DNA of 54,386 nt from Hydrogenobacter sp. GTDB taxonomy: Bacteria; Aquificota; Aquificia; Aquificales; Aquificaceae. Below, piece by piece: positions 23,025-39,973 of this stretch (positions are counted from its first letter, which is position 1; each line of letters opens with the position of its first letter). The position numbers and the translations under genes were made by a program. The stretch lies in assembly GCA_023255875.1 (NCBI GenBank), contig JAGDVY010000010.1, positions 1 through 54,386 on the forward strand, read 5' to 3'. The notes below the pieces were generated by a model. The model was not told the origin of the DNA, did not search any database, and saw only the letters and a program-made list of their open reading frames with translations.

Positions 23025-24290
23025 TTATACGCTTGATTTCTTGCTTGCGATTTTTCTTTCTAATATATACTTTGCTCTTGAGCGCACTATGGGATAAGGA
23101 TGATGGGAGAGCTTTCTTAGAAGTTCCAAAGCTTCTACGTGGGACATTTTACCAAGGGCATCAACTATAGCCATCAAAAGTATAGGATTTGACTCTTTAT
23201 TCGCCATGTATTCAAGTTGGGGAATAGCGGATGCGAGGTCTTTTATGCCCACCGTATGTATAACATTCATCCTCATCTCCAATACTGGATGTTCAAGACC
23301 CATAAGAAGCTTGTATTCGTATGGCATTTTGTGGAATTCCCTAAGATCATATCCACAGTTAGGACATATCTCATCCTTTTCTGATATAACGCTCCAACAG
23401 GCGGGACAAAAGTAGATTATGGAGGAGTTATCATTAGTTTTCAATACCTTTATCTTACTGCCTTCTTCTATGTAATCGTAAGGATTTAATATATCAAACC
23501 GCTTTATTTGATTGACCAAATAAGCCTCAAAAACATCCACTTCTTCATCAAAAGCGCTTTGATATATTACATATCCGTCCATAAATACCCGATAACCGTA
23601 ATCTTGCATAGATACACTTACTAAAAGTAGTGGATGTCCCATGTGCCTCTTGGATAGTTCTTGGCAGAACTCTTGTGCATCCTCTAATTTCCAAAACACG
23701 GAGACCATCTTAGGATCGGAAAGTAGAAAGCTAAGCACTATGTCTTCCAATTGGTAGAGATTTATCAGACACATATTTTCAGAAAGATTTTCTATTATCT
23801 GTTTGAGTGCCTCTGTGCCCTTTTGTTGCTCAGTTCTTGCATCTACAATCAGGCCGTTCTGTAAGAAGATATATCCCTTTTCTCTTTTTACTCTGTCTTC
23901 TATCTCTACAAATCCCGTGGTAGAAAACTCTTCTAATTTTCTGAAAAACTCCTTTATGTTAAAGCTCAGACTTTCTAAGTTTATCCATATGGGTTCTTTT
24001 TTGCATAAAGGTATTTCTGGAGATAGAGGCATTTGAAAGTGATGTATGAGAAAGTTTCTTGTGGATTTATAGAAACTGAGCATCTCAAAGTACTCAGGAA
24101 GGTCTCCCCACAGAGCACCATTGACCATTGGTAAAAAGCGCGTCTGTTCCAAAGATTGAAACACATAAAAGCCCGTTTGAAGAGAAGAGCTGTGTATCTC
24201 AAGTATCCAGCTTAAGTTCACCGCTTCTCTGTGTATGGGACCAAAAACAGGTTTAGCCTTTTTAAGAAGATCTAACAGCTCCTTCTTCAT
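23025..24290 (-). CDS. DUF4388-like / zinc-ribbon / HEAT protein, candidate MglA effector
   Basis: A 421-aa soluble protein, not a named family as a whole. An N-terminal part (1-100) is unrecognised. Residues about 105-190 follow the DUF4388/PATAN-like pattern, a helix then TTGFVEIE, then GYIFLQNGLIVDA, then KGTEAL. A central alpha/beta region (195-285) is followed by a four-Cys zinc ribbon (C295, C298, C309, C312). The C-terminal 90 residues are HEAT-like helical repeats. It overlaps the end of mglA by 29 nt and is followed by pilT, so by context it probably connects MglA-GTP to the pilus motor. Domain calls come from pattern reading and have not been checked by profile search. Confidence 0.65.
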   Translation of the reverse strand: MKKELLDLLKKAKPVFGPIHREAVNLSWILEIHSSSLQTGFYVFQSLEQTRFLPMVNGALWGDLPEYFEMLSFYKSTRNFLIHHFQMPLSPEIPLCKKEPIWINLESLSFNIKEFFRKLEEFSTTGFVEIEDRVKREKGYIFLQNGLIVDARTEQQKGTEALKQIIENLSENMCLINLYQLEDIVLSFLLSDPKMVSVFWKLEDAQEFCQELSKRHMGHPLLLVSVSMQDYGYRVFMDGYVIYQSAFDEEVDVFEAYLVNQIKRFDILNPYDYIEEGSKIKVLKTNDNSSIIYFCPACWSVISEKDEICPNCGYDLREFHKMPYEYKLLMGLEHPVLEMRMNVIHTVGIKDLASAIPQLEYMANKESNPILLMAIVDALGKMSHVEALELLRKLSHHPYPIVRSRAKYILERKIASKKSSV

Positions 24291-24801
24291 TTTTTAGAGC
24301 AGTCTTTATGGCTTCTTTTAGAGTTTCCAAAACGCCAATGCCATCTTTTGCGACTGCGGGAATCACAGGTACGCTATTAAAAGTCTCTCTTATGATTTCC
24401 AATGGAACTGCGTTTGGTACATCTCTCTTGTTTGCTTGCACTACTATCCTATCCATGCTTACAATATCCTTTATTTCATAAAAGCTTTCCATGTTTTCCT
24501 GCATGTCTCTTGAGGAGTCAAAGACAAACACAAGGGAAGATGCATGTCCAAAAAGCCAAGGTCTGAGTATTTTAAACCTCTTTTGCCCGGGTGTGGTGAA
24601 TAGAGAAACAAGAACATCTACACCTTGAATATGGGTATGAAACTTTAGCGTGAGCACATCAAGATATACGGTCCTTCCTTCCGCAGTCTGCTGATGGATT
24701 CTATCGTAAACTCTATCTTTGTAGATTTCTCTAAGCTTTTCCAAGTTGGTGGTTTTGCCAGCCATACCAAGACCGTGGTAAAGTATGCGCAGTTCCCTCA
24801 T
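24262..24801 (-). CDS. mglA: MglA-type small Ras-like GTPase
   Basis: A 179-aa bacterial Ras-like GTPase that sets cell polarity by switching between GTP and GDP forms. The P-loop is G10-x4-GKTT (GLGMAGKTT), the G3 motif is TTPGQ (70-74) with the Pro typical of MglA, and the G4 motif NKRD (125-128) is present. In Myxococcus and Thermus, MglA pairs with its GAP MglB, and here the mglB-like gene is immediately upstream with a 4-nt overlap. The downstream genes are a possible effector and pilT-pilC, pointing to control of type IV pilus polarity or reversal. Confidence 0.88.
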   Translation of the reverse strand: MRELRILYHGLGMAGKTTNLEKLREIYKDRVYDRIHQQTAEGRTVYLDVLTLKFHTHIQGVDVLVSLFTTPGQKRFKILRPWLFGHASSLVFVFDSSRDMQENMESFYEIKDIVSMDRIVVQANKRDVPNAVPLEIIRETFNSVPVIPAVAKDGIGVLETLKEAIKTALKNEEGAVRSS

Positions 24802-25250
24802 ATGGCTATGTCCTCAAATCTTATAGTGCGCGTATTTGCTTTTCTATTGCGAGCCTCTTCTAAGATGGGATATATCTCTTTCATAAGTCTCTCGGCGAAA
24901 ACCTTCACACTGCCAAGGGGCGTTTTATTAGAGAAAGAAACGAGTAGAATAAAGTCGTTTTCTGATTTATGCATATACACACTCTTGGTCTTTCCTGCTA
25001 CGTACAAAACTCTTCCACTATCAACGAGATTTTCTAAGTACTCTATGGCTCCGTTTATTGCTGCGGAGATGACTGCACTTCTATGGGATAGGGGCTTTAA
25101 GCTCTCAAGCTTTGGGGCAAAAGTTATGAGTCTTCCACCTTCATCACACAGAACGCACAGTTCCACGCCCACATTCTTGACAAAGTTTTCTAACATTAGG
25201 GAAAGTCTTTCCAGCTCTTCGTCTAAAAAGTTGTAAGAAATTATATCCAC
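24798..25250 (-). CDS. mglB: Roadblock/LC7-domain protein, MglB-like
   Basis: A 150-aa protein with a Roadblock/LC7 fold: helix about 10-25, strands VELCVLCDEGGRLITFAP, a long helix about 57-75 (SAVISAAINGAIEYLENLV), then GRVLYVAGKTKSVYMHKSENDFILLVSF and a C-terminal helix. MglB homodimers are GTPase-activating proteins for MglA, and the adjacent overlapping mglA supports that role. The start is GTG with a strong AAGGAGGT. It probably begins a transcription unit, because 49 nt separate it from the M23 peptidase gene, though no clear -10 box is seen. Confidence 0.82.
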   Translation of the reverse strand: MDIISYNFLDEELERLSLMLENFVKNVGVELCVLCDEGGRLITFAPKLESLKPLSHRSAVISAAINGAIEYLENLVDSGRVLYVAGKTKSVYMHKSENDFILLVSFSNKTPLGSVKVFAERLMKEIYPILEEARNRKANTRTIRFEDIAI

Positions 25251-29130: not shown

Positions 29131-29787
29131 TTATAACTCTTTTAAAAGCTCCACTACTTTTTTCATATCTTGGGTGAACTCTTTGTCCGCTTGGGGGTTT
29201 CTTAGCACATAAGCAGGATGGTAAGTTAGAAAAACCTTTATGTTCCTGTCAAAGGGGTAGTCAAAAATTTGTCCTCTGTAGCGCGTTATGGGTAGGTTCT
29301 TACCCAAAAGCCCTTCAAGAGCGGTAGAGCCCAAGCAAACTATGAGCTTTGGCTTTATTATCTCTATTTCCTTTCTCAGATAGGGTATACAGCTTATCAT
29401 CTCCTCCTTGGTGGGTTTTCTGTTTCCCGGTGGTCTTGATTTTACTACATTGGTGATATAAACATCTTCACGCCTTAGTCCCACTTCTTGGAGCTTTTCG
29501 TTTAGGTACCTACCCGCTCTTCCTACAAAGGGCTTTTTTTGTATGTCTTCCTCCTCACCTGGTGCTTCTCCCACAAAAACCACTGGTGAATCAGGATTCC
29601 CATCACCAAAGACATAGCCACTGCTACCTTGATAGAGCACACACTTACCCTCGGAGCTCATTTTTTTGTATAGCTCTTCCAAAAGAAGCCTTTTATCCTT
29701 CTTTTCCTCTCTCTTTTCAACTGAGTAAAGCTCCGTTATACCTATTTCTTCTAAGGACTTTACCGTTGCAAAAAGTTTTCTATCCAT
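29131..29787 (-). CDS. Family 4 uracil-DNA glycosylase with an incomplete Fe-S site
   Basis: A 218-aa thermophile-type uracil-DNA glycosylase that removes uracil from deaminated DNA. Motif 1 is GEAPGEEED (73-81) and motif 3 is YHPAYVLRNP. ITNVVK-RPP and NRKPTKEEM are also typical. Family 4 enzymes normally have four Cys binding a [4Fe-4S] cluster (CxxC, KCRPP, and a Cys in the following helix). Here the first Cys is E46 and the third is S117 (VVKSRPP). Only C49 and C133 remain, so the cluster is probably absent. Activity is expected from the intact active-site motifs. Confidence 0.88.
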   Translation of the reverse strand: MDRKLFATVKSLEEIGITELYSVEKREEKKDKRLLLEELYKKMSSEGKCVLYQGSSGYVFGDGNPDSPVVFVGEAPGEEEDIQKKPFVGRAGRYLNEKLQEVGLRREDVYITNVVKSRPPGNRKPTKEEMISCIPYLRKEIEIIKPKLIVCLGSTALEGLLGKNLPITRYRGQIFDYPFDRNIKVFLTYHPAYVLRNPQADKEFTQDMKKVVELLKEL

Positions 29788-30008
29788 GACTTTTCAAAGC
29801 AAGCACTTCCCTCTTGGTAATTCTGGCTTTTCTCTATGCACTCCTTTAGCTTTTCCAACCTGTAAGTGGCTAACTTCTTGCATATTACCCAAGCGTATTC
29901 ACACCATTTGTGCTCTTTTAAGGGGTTGGTATTACACTCTTTGTCCCCTGCGTAGGAAACACCAAAAGCGAGTATTAAACAGAGACTAACTTTCTGTATC
30001 TTTCCCAT
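29760..30008 (-). CDS. Small exported cysteine-rich protein
   Basis: About 82 aa and not recognised. The ATG at 30008 is chosen because it opens a typical signal peptide (MGKIQKVSLCLILAFGVSYAG). The mature part is charged and helical with five cysteines (in KECNT, KWCEY, VICKK, KECIE and ACFEK), spaced like a small helical disulfide protein of the CHCH type. It overlaps the nuoF 3' end by 34 nt and the glycosylase start by 28 nt, unusually tight but in line with the dense packing here. Confidence 0.6.
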   Translation of the reverse strand: MGKIQKVSLCLILAFGVSYAGDKECNTNPLKEHKWCEYAWVICKKLATYRLEKLKECIEKSQNYQEGSACFEKSWIENFLQR

Positions 30009-36131: not shown

Positions 36132-36533
36132 TTAGGAGAAAAATACAAGCCTTATCATCCAGCCTGTGAAGAACTCAAAAAGTACCAAAAGCACCCCCAA
36201 AATGCTTATTAGCAGACCCATTTTGCCTGCATTTTCTCCCTTGAACCAAAAGAATAGAAAAGAAAAGAGCGCGTAAAGTAAAAGAAGTATGCCGTTCCAC
36301 TTGTGGGGAAACATCCAGATAGCGGGCGCTTTGGACTGCACCAAAGGCACATTAGACACAGAAAAACCTGCAAGCACCGACAGCAGTGCCACTACCATAA
36401 GAAAACCATGTAAGACAAGTGTGTACCTAAAAGCTTGGGTGTTTTTGAACAAACTGAGGCTGAAAACATAAAGCACAAACACTACAAAAGCTAAGAGTAT
36501 AGTGCTATAAGCAAAGAGCGGGTGAAGGATCAT
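36132..36533 (-). CDS. Four-TM membrane protein of unknown function
   Basis: A 133-aa polytopic protein with TM segments at about 8-28, 40-60, 80-98 and 106-128. Conserved-looking polar residues near membrane edges include HP at position 4-5, H43 (VLHGF) and HK at 77-78. The pattern is reminiscent of DUF2231-like or cytochrome b561-like bundles but is not convincing. It overlaps the reverse gyrase stop by 4 nt and precedes dxs. Confidence 0.7.
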   Translation of the reverse strand: MILHPLFAYSTILLAFVVFVLYVFSLSLFKNTQAFRYTLVLHGFLMVVALLSVLAGFSVSNVPLVQSKAPAIWMFPHKWNGILLLLYALFSFLFFWFKGENAGKMGLLISILGVLLVLFEFFTGWMIRLVFFS

Positions 36534-39500
36534 CTTCCTACCTCCAAAAAGGGTTCTAAAGACATTATAACCTTGTATAGGTCTTTAAGTATATCTTGGT
36601 AATCTGCATTACCTTCTTCTACCAGGTCCATAAGGCTTTCAAGCTTCCTTGTGAATTCTTCTGAGACAAACTCTCTTATGCCTTCCCTTTTGCTCAGATA
36701 TTCGTAAGCGGATTTGCCCAATTTTGTAGGTATCAAAAAGCCTCCCCTTTCTATCACATAACCTCTCTCTAAGAGCTTTTCCACTATGGTAGCGTAAGTA
36801 GATGGCCTTCCTATACCCCTTCTTTTCATTTCTTGAACAAGCTCACCCTGAGTGTAGAGAAACGCCTTTGGAAGTGATCTTAGCTCCTTTGAATTTTCTA
36901 CAGATACTATACCTTCTATATGTGGGTGGGTCTCTAAGTACAAGAATTTGTTCCAACCGTCTTCAAGGATCTGTACCGTAAGGGTGTGTTTTTGCTCCAA
37001 CTCACCTGCTTTTACAAGCACTTCAAGGGTTTTTACTTTTACGGGTCTTGTCTGGCTTGCCATGAACCTCCTAAAGATAAGGTCATAGAGCATTATATGT
37101 TCCCTTGTGAGGTTCTCTATCTGACCGCTCAGGACCAAAGCTTTTAATTCTTCCGTATCCATAGGCTTTGTAGGTCTTATACACTCGTGCGCTCCACCTT
37201 CTCCAAAGTGGTGAGGTCTAAAGTACTCTTCTCCCAGCTCTTCCTTTATGTACTCTCTGGCTATGCCTATGCCATAATCAGAAACCCTTGTAGAGTCCGT
37301 TCTGTGGTATGTTATAAAACCAAGCTCAAAGAGCGTTTGAGCCAAGTCCATAGTCTTTGGCAGAGAAAATCTATACCTATCGCTGGCGTCCTTCAGGAGA
37401 GTATCTGTGGTGTATGGAGGAGGTGGGTTTTTATACTCTTCTTTGCTTTCAAGCACCTGAAACTCAAGATACCTTAACTTATCGTAGAACTCCTTTGCAG
37501 AATTTTTGTTCTCAAAACTAAACTCCGTTCTAAAGACCTTTCCGTCCTTTTCTACCCTCACAAAGACTTTGTATATCCTTTTTCTGTATTCCTTTTCCCT
37601 TTCTATGATCCAGCCAAGCACAGGTGTTTGAACCCTTCCAGCAGAGAGCCAGCTCTTTCCAAAAGCCTGCTGTAGGAATCTGGAAAACTCAAATCCTACC
37701 CATCTGTCTGCAACCCTTCGCACCACCTGAGCCTTGACCAAGTTAATGTTAAAGTCTCTTGGCTCTTTTATGGCTTTAATTATGGCTTTTTTGGTCACCT
37801 CGTGGAACTCCATTCTCTTTATGTCTTTCACATATGGTCTTAGCAACTCCATAAGGTCCCAGCCTATCTTTTCTCCTTCTGTGTCTGGGTCTGTTGCTAT
37901 AAGCACCTGCATAGCCTCAAGGGACATTCTCCTTATGCTCTTTATTAGCTCTTCTTTTCCTTCAATGCTCTCATAAACAGGCACTATGTCTCCATTTACA
38001 TAAACACCGTAGAACCCCTCCTCCTTGTTAAGGTCCAGAATATGACCCAAAGAGGAGGTGATCATAATGTATCTGTCTTCCATAGATGTCTCAAGAACCT
38101 CGTGCTGTCCAATCCTTCTTCTTACTACCTTACCAAAGAAGTTAGCTATTGTTTTTGCCTTGTTTGGCGATTCAACCACTATAAGCACAGGCTTTAGAAG
38201 GTCTGTCTGTTGTGGAGGTCTCTCTCCCTTTAAAAACTCCCTCACTTTTGCCCTGTCATTGTCTATCTCCAAAAGCACCTTTTCCAAATCCACTGAAGAG
38301 ATGGGAACAAAGTCTATGTCTTCACTAAACCACCTTACCCTTTTCTTGAGATGATTAAAGGCTCTTGGGTCATCAACCAAAAGAATGCTAAGTCCCTTTG
38401 TGATGCCACCTGCAAACATTCTGGAGGTCCTTCCGCTTGCCTGAAGGTATCCTGTGGCATCAGAGACCACCATCTGATAATCCCCATTTACGAGCCTTAG
38501 CGTTAGGTCTTCTGATGTCTCAATGATGCTAATGACCTCTTGGCTCATCAAAAACTGCCTTATTTCTTCTCTGAGCTGGTCTATCTTTTCCTTGAGGTCC
38601 TTTTTCTCCTCCAGATACTCCTCGTTTATGTACTGATACCTTTTTAGTTTGGATATCCAGTTATCCACTTTTTGTATGTGATGGCTCAGGTGTTTTGCTA
38701 TGTGATGCCTAACAGAAGAAAGAGCCCAAAGCAGATGAGAAAGGCTCTTTTCAAAACTCAGAGATATCACTATTTTGGGAACACCGTAGAAAAGAGCGTA
38801 TCTGATCACATGAGGCATATCCAAGCCCCTTGCCAGAGGATTTCTGTAAGAAGCTATACCCACTATCACGTCTATTTTGCCCCTTTCGTAATCATGAAGA
38901 TGCCTTTCGTTTAGCTCCTCATAAGAGACCGCCCTTATACCCTTTTCTTCAAGGCTTTTTACAAGATTTGATACCTCTTCCTTTCCTTTGTCAGAGGACA
39001 AAAACACAAGCCCACCCTTGCCAAGCCTTTTGATCCACTCAGAAAGCTCCTGCTCCTGATAGGGTGCGTAAGCATCTACTATGTTTCTGAGGTAAAAGGT
39101 AGGAGTTCCCACCTCAAAGCCCAACAGCTCTCTAAAGAGTTTTATTCTGTTGGAACGAGGGTTTGATGTGGCAGAAGATACCACAAGCACCCCCTTTACC
39201 TTCTTTTGGGACAACTCCCTCACCTCTTGGGAAAGCTCCCTTATCTTCTCCCAGTCTTGATCTGTTTTTTTGAACTTCTCCTTTAACCTTATGAGGTTCA
39301 TAGCCTTTTCTATATCTTCCTCACTAAAGCCCAAAAGGTAAAGAGCCTTGTCTATGTTTTTGGCGGTCTTTAAAAAGGAATCCACATCATCCACAAAAAG
39401 GAAGGATATGTCCTTGGGTATATGCTCGTAGTTTTTGTAGAGGAACATGGAAGTGGAGACAAGCACAAGAAAATCACCGTTTTTTAACCTCTCCTTTTTC

Positions 39501-39973
39501 TCCTCTTTCTTTTTACCTTCCTCATCACCAAAGCTAAGAAGATCCGAATCTTTGATACCCATCTTCTTAAGACGGTTGCTCACTTGATTTACCAGCAGTT
39601 TGGTAGGTAGGATTATGTAGGACTTTTTCCCTTTTTTGGCAAGATAAAGAACCACAGACAAGCCAAAGGAAGTTTTACCTACACCAGTTGGAGCAAGCAG
39701 TGCAAAGGAACTTCCCAGAAAAACCCTCTTTGCCCACGCACGTTGCAAGCTCCAAGGCTTTGACTTTATGTGCTTCTCAAAGACCTCTTCCCACTCCTTT
39801 ATTTCCTGCTCTATATCACAGAGCTTTTTTAACTCTCCGTGCTTTAGTGCCTCACACACAGGCTTGTCTTCGTCTGGCATACAAACACTACAGGGCAAAC
39901 CTTTGAGCAGTCTATCCGAGCTTATATCTCCTCCACAGTTAGGACAAAGCCTAAGCAGAACACTTTTTACCAT
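36530..39973 (-). CDS. rgy: Reverse gyrase
   Basis: An 1147-aa fusion of an SF2 helicase-like module and a type IA topoisomerase that introduces positive supercoils, the hallmark protein of hyperthermophiles. The N-terminal zinc finger is C10, C13, C28, C31. Walker A is APTGVGKTS and the DEAD-box equivalent is DDVD, as usual in the family. The TOPRIM domain has VESPNKAKTIANFFG and ATDPDTEGEKIGWDL, and the nucleophile Tyr is near residue 889 (FITYHRTDSTRVS). The second zinc finger that some members carry in TOPRIM is absent. No Shine-Dalgarno precedes the start, and a -10-like TAAGAT ends 8 nt before the ATG. Confidence 0.98.
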   Translation of the reverse strand: MVKSVLLRLCPNCGGDISSDRLLKGLPCSVCMPDEDKPVCEALKHGELKKLCDIEQEIKEWEEVFEKHIKSKPWSLQRAWAKRVFLGSSFALLAPTGVGKTSFGLSVVLYLAKKGKKSYIILPTKLLVNQVSNRLKKMGIKDSDLLSFGDEEGKKKEEKKERLKNGDFLVLVSTSMFLYKNYEHIPKDISFLFVDDVDSFLKTAKNIDKALYLLGFSEEDIEKAMNLIRLKEKFKKTDQDWEKIRELSQEVRELSQKKVKGVLVVSSATSNPRSNRIKLFRELLGFEVGTPTFYLRNIVDAYAPYQEQELSEWIKRLGKGGLVFLSSDKGKEEVSNLVKSLEEKGIRAVSYEELNERHLHDYERGKIDVIVGIASYRNPLARGLDMPHVIRYALFYGVPKIVISLSFEKSLSHLLWALSSVRHHIAKHLSHHIQKVDNWISKLKRYQYINEEYLEEKKDLKEKIDQLREEIRQFLMSQEVISIIETSEDLTLRLVNGDYQMVVSDATGYLQASGRTSRMFAGGITKGLSILLVDDPRAFNHLKKRVRWFSEDIDFVPISSVDLEKVLLEIDNDRAKVREFLKGERPPQQTDLLKPVLIVVESPNKAKTIANFFGKVVRRRIGQHEVLETSMEDRYIMITSSLGHILDLNKEEGFYGVYVNGDIVPVYESIEGKEELIKSIRRMSLEAMQVLIATDPDTEGEKIGWDLMELLRPYVKDIKRMEFHEVTKKAIIKAIKEPRDFNINLVKAQVVRRVADRWVGFEFSRFLQQAFGKSWLSAGRVQTPVLGWIIEREKEYRKRIYKVFVRVEKDGKVFRTEFSFENKNSAKEFYDKLRYLEFQVLESKEEYKNPPPPYTTDTLLKDASDRYRFSLPKTMDLAQTLFELGFITYHRTDSTRVSDYGIGIAREYIKEELGEEYFRPHHFGEGGAHECIRPTKPMDTEELKALVLSGQIENLTREHIMLYDLIFRRFMASQTRPVKVKTLEVLVKAGELEQKHTLTVQILEDGWNKFLYLETHPHIEGIVSVENSKELRSLPKAFLYTQGELVQEMKRRGIGRPSTYATIVEKLLERGYVIERGGFLIPTKLGKSAYEYLSKREGIREFVSEEFTRKLESLMDLVEEGNADYQDILKDLYKVIMSLEPFLEVGR

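Follow-up and report, generated by a model that had tools for sequence, protein, structure and literature searches.

Replacement of two of the four iron-sulphur cluster ligands in the family-4 uracil-DNA glycosylase of Hydrogenobacter and related Aquificaceae

The role of the [4Fe-4S] cluster in family-4 uracil-DNA glycosylases (UDGs) is unsettled, and work on mutants has pointed to a role in structure or stability. A gene on contig JAGDVY010000010.1 of a Hydrogenobacter sp. genome (assembly GCA_023255875.1) raises the question whether such an enzyme can do without its cluster, as an earlier note had described the product as a family-4 UDG lacking two of the four cluster ligands. The gene lies at positions 29131..29787 on the minus strand of the window, i.e. 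the whole stretch of 54,386 nucleotides that was analysed, and encodes 218 amino acids from an ATG start.

The protein scored 220 bits against the family-4 profile TIGR00758, compared to a curated cut-off of 125.3, and 136 bits against PF03167. Its scores stayed below the cut-offs of the UdgX profile TIGR03914 (152 versus 189.95 bits) and of the archaeal-type family 4 profile NF040953 (196.5 versus 250 bits). The motif A GEQPG and the KRRIH loop that mark UdgX are likewise absent, the Hydrogenobacter protein having GEAPG and no KRRIH loop. An AlphaFold2 model calculated without any cluster (mean pLDDT 95.7) shows the UDG alpha/beta fold, and its closest PDB structures are family-4 UDGs, with target-normalised TM-scores of 0.88-0.90 (1l9g/1ui0). 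This high-confidence prediction without a cluster indicates that the fold is kept and says nothing on the absence of the cluster itself. A PF03167 search of the window genome (99.86% complete) matched this gene alone; no second gene of the UDG superfamily, and hence no additional cluster-bearing UDG, was found by it.

Ligand sites were assigned by aligning the protein with family-4 enzymes of known structure (1l9g, 1ui0 and 4zbx), and the codons were read from the DNA. The columns of the four cluster cysteines correspond to E46, C49, S117 and C133. Glutamate E46 (GAG, 29650..29652, minus strand) occupies the site of ligand 1, the first cysteine of the CxxC motif, and S117 (TCA, 29437..29439, minus strand) that of ligand 3 in the KCRPP loop, which is part of motif 3 and lies between N113 and N122. 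Ligand 2 (C49, TGT, 29641..29643, minus strand) and ligand 4 (C133, TGT, 29389..29391, minus strand) are kept. The protein therefore does not have the four cysteine ligands expected for a [4Fe-4S] cluster; by descent and active site it would be classed as a family-4 UDG, and by its ligand set not as a cluster-bearing one. We infer the absence of the cluster from the loss of ligands, and the conserved E46 and S117 could be oxygen ligands.

The active site is preserved. Motif 1/A (GEAPG, residues 73-77, 29557..29571), which is responsible for uracil recognition, and motif 2/B (HPAYVLR, residues 190-196, 29200..29220), which contains the catalytic histidine, are intact, as are both catalytic asparagines of motif 3 (NVVKSRPPGN, residues 113-122, 29422..29451; all on the minus strand), the motif in which ligand 3 is replaced by serine (PMC5387724). 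The active-site residues E41, E47, F54, N80, N89 and H155 of Thermus thermophilus UDGa, which were probed by mutation (PMC5387724), correspond to E74, E80, F87, N113, N122 and H190. Among these, the N113-equivalent contacts uracil and the N122-equivalent coordinates water (PMC5387724). Each of the six residues, as well as the family-4 motifs GE(A/G)PG, the motif-3 asparagine pair and HPA with the catalytic histidine, is conserved in 24 of 24 sequences of the clade that shares the ligand loss (hereafter loss clade). Family membership and intact active-site motifs, both proposed in the earlier note, are thus confirmed, and its reading of the ligands (E46-x-x-C49, S117 and C133, with two of four gone) proved exact to the residue.

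To determine how far the replacement extends, we surveyed 112 Aquificales genomes, of which 106 contained a match, and extracted and aligned about 90 sequences. All 24 full-length sequences of four Aquificaceae genera, including that of the window, showed the pattern E/D-C-S-C (glutamate in 23, aspartate in one), and one partial sequence from these genera has serine and cysteine at its readable ligand sites. The other Aquificaceae genera and two further Aquificales families have C-C-C-C in all full-length sequences (63/63). Named records with the loss are Hydrogenobacter sp. RSWP5 and Thermocrinis sp. RSWP3, while Aquifex keeps all four cysteines. C49 is invariant in the loss clade and in all Aquificales sampled, C133 in the loss clade. 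A loss of only ligand 1 or only ligand 3 was not seen in any Aquificales sequence sampled. The loss clade uses GAG or GAA for E46 (GAT for the aspartate) and TCN for S117; since TGY became GAR, the change from cysteine to glutamate altered all three codon positions. A sequencing or assembly error, which had been named as a way in which the observation could fail, is ruled out by the fixation of E/D-C-S-C across four genera; both losses are common to close relatives and absent from the other Aquificales (0/63). Records titled Acidobacteria (J001) and Gammaproteobacteria (MAG 128) also carry Aquificales-type UDGs that match genomes of the Aquificales search, and these titles look wrong.

In a tree of 98 proteins, inferred with the four ligand columns masked, the loss clade was monophyletic (SH-aLRT 100) and nested inside Aquificales (98). 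Its stem measured 0.26 changes per column, compared to about 0.05 for the adjacent stems. The replacement of both ligands thus has a single origin in Aquificaceae, presumably in the ancestor that Hydrogenobacter and Thermocrinis share with their related genera. Pairwise comparisons of clade members gave a dN/dS of about 0.05-0.15, a sign of purifying selection, which, together with the lack of another PF03167 gene in the window genome, indicates a maintained gene. The same observations, and the complete catalytic set, make it very improbable that the protein has degenerated or been repurposed and has given up uracil excision, even though a conserved cofactor site was lost and the replacement of G84 by lysine adjoins the active-site loop.

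This lysine is one of several clade-specific replacements that cluster around the ligand site, namely in the linker at residues 52-57, at V115 and at K84. The residue at the position of K84 (29536..29538, minus strand) is glycine in 63 of 63 other Aquificales and 61 of 61 non-Aquificales sequences, and its replacement is a possible compensation. The linker after C49 (residues 52-57, 29617..29634, minus strand) reads Y-E-G-A/S-S-G in the clade versus H-K-S-R-T-Q. In the AlphaFold2 model, ligands 1 and 2 lie where the N-terminal helix ends and ligand 3 in motif 3 between N113 and N122, positions from which it follows that a cluster would hold the N-terminal segment and the catalytic loop together.

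Whether the altered site still binds a metal, be it a [4Fe-4S] cluster, a smaller cluster or zinc, via C49, C133, E46 and S117 has to be considered at this point. Residue 46 is glutamate or aspartate in 24 of 24 sequences although positions 45 and 47 on either side are variable, and both cysteines as well as S117 are invariant; such conservation could look alike if these residues were metal ligands, which speaks against a loss of the cluster. UdgX, which is described as cluster-bearing (PMC10359453), has a histidine aligned with ligand 3. We nevertheless regard a retained metal site as unlikely, as two of the four cysteines are gone and the changes in the linker and at G84 suggest a repacking of the region.

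Relatives outside of Aquificales bear on this point as well. Among 61 such sequences compared at the ligand sites, ligand 3 was replaced in eight (serine in four, histidine, alanine, tyrosine and tryptophan in one each) and ligand 1 in two, while no replacement of ligand 2 or 4 was found. Four unrelated lineages have serine at site 3 and keep the remaining cysteines (C-C-S-C), which can be read in favour of a metal site. Together with the histidine of UdgX, this serine means that a residue other than cysteine at site 3 need not indicate a lost cluster. Site 3 seems to be the most plastic ligand position, judging from UdgX and the replacements in these relatives. The family-4 UDGs with C-C-S-C (four), C-C-H-C (one) and C-C-A-C (one) may represent intermediates or clusters with a non-cysteine ligand. 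An E-C-Y-C pattern in one relative is doubtful, as its cysteines are spaced CxC.

Prompted by one of these sequences with replaced ligands, from Rhodospirillales, we also sampled 96 genomes of Alphaproteobacteria, which yielded 75 family-4 UDGs. Ligand 1 is replaced by phenylalanine, tyrosine or leucine (valine and isoleucine once each) and ligand 3 by tryptophan (tyrosine once), giving the signature FDGC...WRPPGNR; for most of the sequences the TIGR00758 score still exceeds the cut-off. Of the 75 sequences, 59 retain ligands 2 and 4, seven have neither and nine have lost one of the two, so that some are devoid of all four cysteines. A cluster in these proteins is hard to reconcile with phenylalanine, tyrosine or leucine and tryptophan at the ligand sites and with the dispensability of the remaining cysteines. 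That residues unable to bind metal, such as phenylalanine and tryptophan, occupy the very two sites that were lost in Aquificaceae also argues against a metal site in the latter. The Alphaproteobacteria form a clade of their own (98) in the 98-protein tree, apart from the loss clade within Aquificales (98), and a shared ancestry of the two losses is not supported. Ligands 1 and 3 were therefore lost at least twice, with aromatic plugs in Alphaproteobacteria and glutamate and serine in Aquificaceae.

The explanation that we consider probable is that the gene encodes an active family-4 UDG no longer containing a cluster, in which two ligands were replaced and packing took over the tie. It is favoured by the fixation in the clade, purifying selection, the sole PF03167 gene, the fold, the catalytic set, the alphaproteobacterial parallel and the activity of cysteine mutants: Cys-to-Ser mutants of the Pyrococcus and Archaeoglobus family-4 UDGs are reported to have lost only about 40% of their activity, and the cluster was read as stabilising (PMC5295032). 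Here, we infer from the sequences the absence of the cluster, the retained uracil excision and the mode of compensation. The gene product would be the uracil-DNA glycosylase of the cell, in which the family-4 fold and active site were retained while the [4Fe-4S] cluster was shed. The replacements of the ligand 1 cysteine by glutamate and of the KCRPP cysteine by serine would have come together with compensating changes nearby (linker 52-57 and G84 to lysine), and uracil would be excised by the usual histidine and asparagine machinery. The job of the cluster, presumably to hold the N-terminal segment against the motif-3 loop with the catalytic asparagine pair, would now be done by protein packing, and C49 and C133 would persist as a buried thiol pair or, in a thermophile that contains PDO, possibly as a disulfide.

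The latter version, in which a C49-C133 disulfide would link the N-terminal segment to helix 127-144 in place of the cluster, is a tentative refinement of the clusterless enzyme proposed above. Both cysteines are invariant in the loss clade, the PDO family is present in the window genome and nearly all Aquificaceae, and Aquifex aeolicus is exceptional among bacteria in the intracellular disulfides predicted for it (PMC3177088). The cysteines at ligands 2 and 4 of the alphaproteobacterial enzymes tend to be kept or lost together (Fisher p 1e-4, ancestry ignored), but phylogenetically independent pairs left only one supported pair. Moreover, most Alphaproteobacteria are mesophiles whose cytosol is reducing, and yet the cysteine pair is mostly kept, so packing may explain its retention. 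It may be speculated, with some doubt, that a swap from cluster to disulfide is a repeatable route, in which ligand 3 is lost first, then ligand 1, and ligands 2 and 4 pair, and which was taken separately in Aquificaceae and Alphaproteobacteria.

As to why the cluster was lost, the earlier note had suggested that the loss may suit hydrogen oxidisers that live microaerobically and are exposed to oxygen. Oxygen is indeed respired by members of the loss clade, such as Hydrogenobacter thermophilus, which oxidises hydrogen aerobically (PMC3111988). However, Aquifex and other Aquificaceae genera keep C-C-C-C, proteins with the EndoIII-type 4Fe-4S motif are kept in 58 of 61 Aquificaceae genomes, including all five of the genus of the window, and the family-4 enzyme of the strict aerobe Sulfolobus acidocaldarius belongs to the cluster-bearing type (PMC5295032). 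The oxygen rationale is hence not upheld, and we regard it as improbable.

Compared to the UDGa enzymes of Thermus thermophilus, Thermotoga maritima and Sulfolobus tokodaii (1ui0, 1l9g and 4zbx), the Hydrogenobacter UDG shares the fold, motifs 1-3, the catalytic histidine and asparagines and ligands 2 and 4, and differs in glutamate and serine at ligands 1 and 3, a new linker at 52-57 and lysine in place of G84. The alphaproteobacterial enzymes resemble it in having lost exactly ligands 1 and 3 while usually keeping ligands 2 and 4, but have a separate origin, carry bulky phenylalanine, tyrosine or leucine plus tryptophan instead of glutamate and serine, and can lose ligands 2 or 4. UdgX (family 7) shares the superfamily, the fold and a non-cysteine ligand 3 (histidine by alignment), whereas its CxxC is intact in the copies examined, and it has GEQPG and covalent-adduct chemistry (PMC10359453). 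A further parallel is 'clusterless' MutY, natural members of a DNA glycosylase family without the 4Fe-4S ligands, as cited in PMC11078426; in contrast, MutY has the unrelated HhH fold, and DNA binding and activity are linked to its cluster (PMC5295032).

The variant is a new natural form of family-4 UDG, and Alphaproteobacteria offer a larger parallel to it. We found no published description of the ligand loss in either group in the literature covered; most subscription papers were outside its scope, and an earlier mention of the alphaproteobacterial loss is possible. The expectation that such an enzyme would show the cluster to be structural only was overstated as new in view of the active Cys-to-Ser mutants (PMC5295032) and the larger alphaproteobacterial example. 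The loss clade beside its four-cysteine sister genera (Aquifex) constitutes a matched pair for roles of the cluster in stability, DNA binding and redox processes at high temperature, and the independent alphaproteobacterial loss of the same two ligands a repeated natural experiment. Both warn against labelling every family-4 UDG a 4Fe-4S protein.

Other genes of the window were noted in passing. An open reading frame at 29760-30008 (minus strand; the frame may extend to 30071) encodes a small cysteine-rich protein with a signal-peptide-like N-terminus and no Pfam match, and shares the 28 bases at its 3' end with the start of the UDG gene; it is conserved upstream of the UDG gene in several loss-clade genomes and elsewhere found near nuoF. 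Reverse gyrase, a marker of hyperthermophily, is encoded at 36530-39973 (minus strand; zf_Rg, DEAD, Toprim and topoisomerase domains). At 24262-25250 (minus strand), a Ras/Arf-like small GTPase gene lies beside a gene for 150 amino acids without a Pfam match, and the two resemble an MglA/MglB-type pair, the likeness of the second member being a guess.
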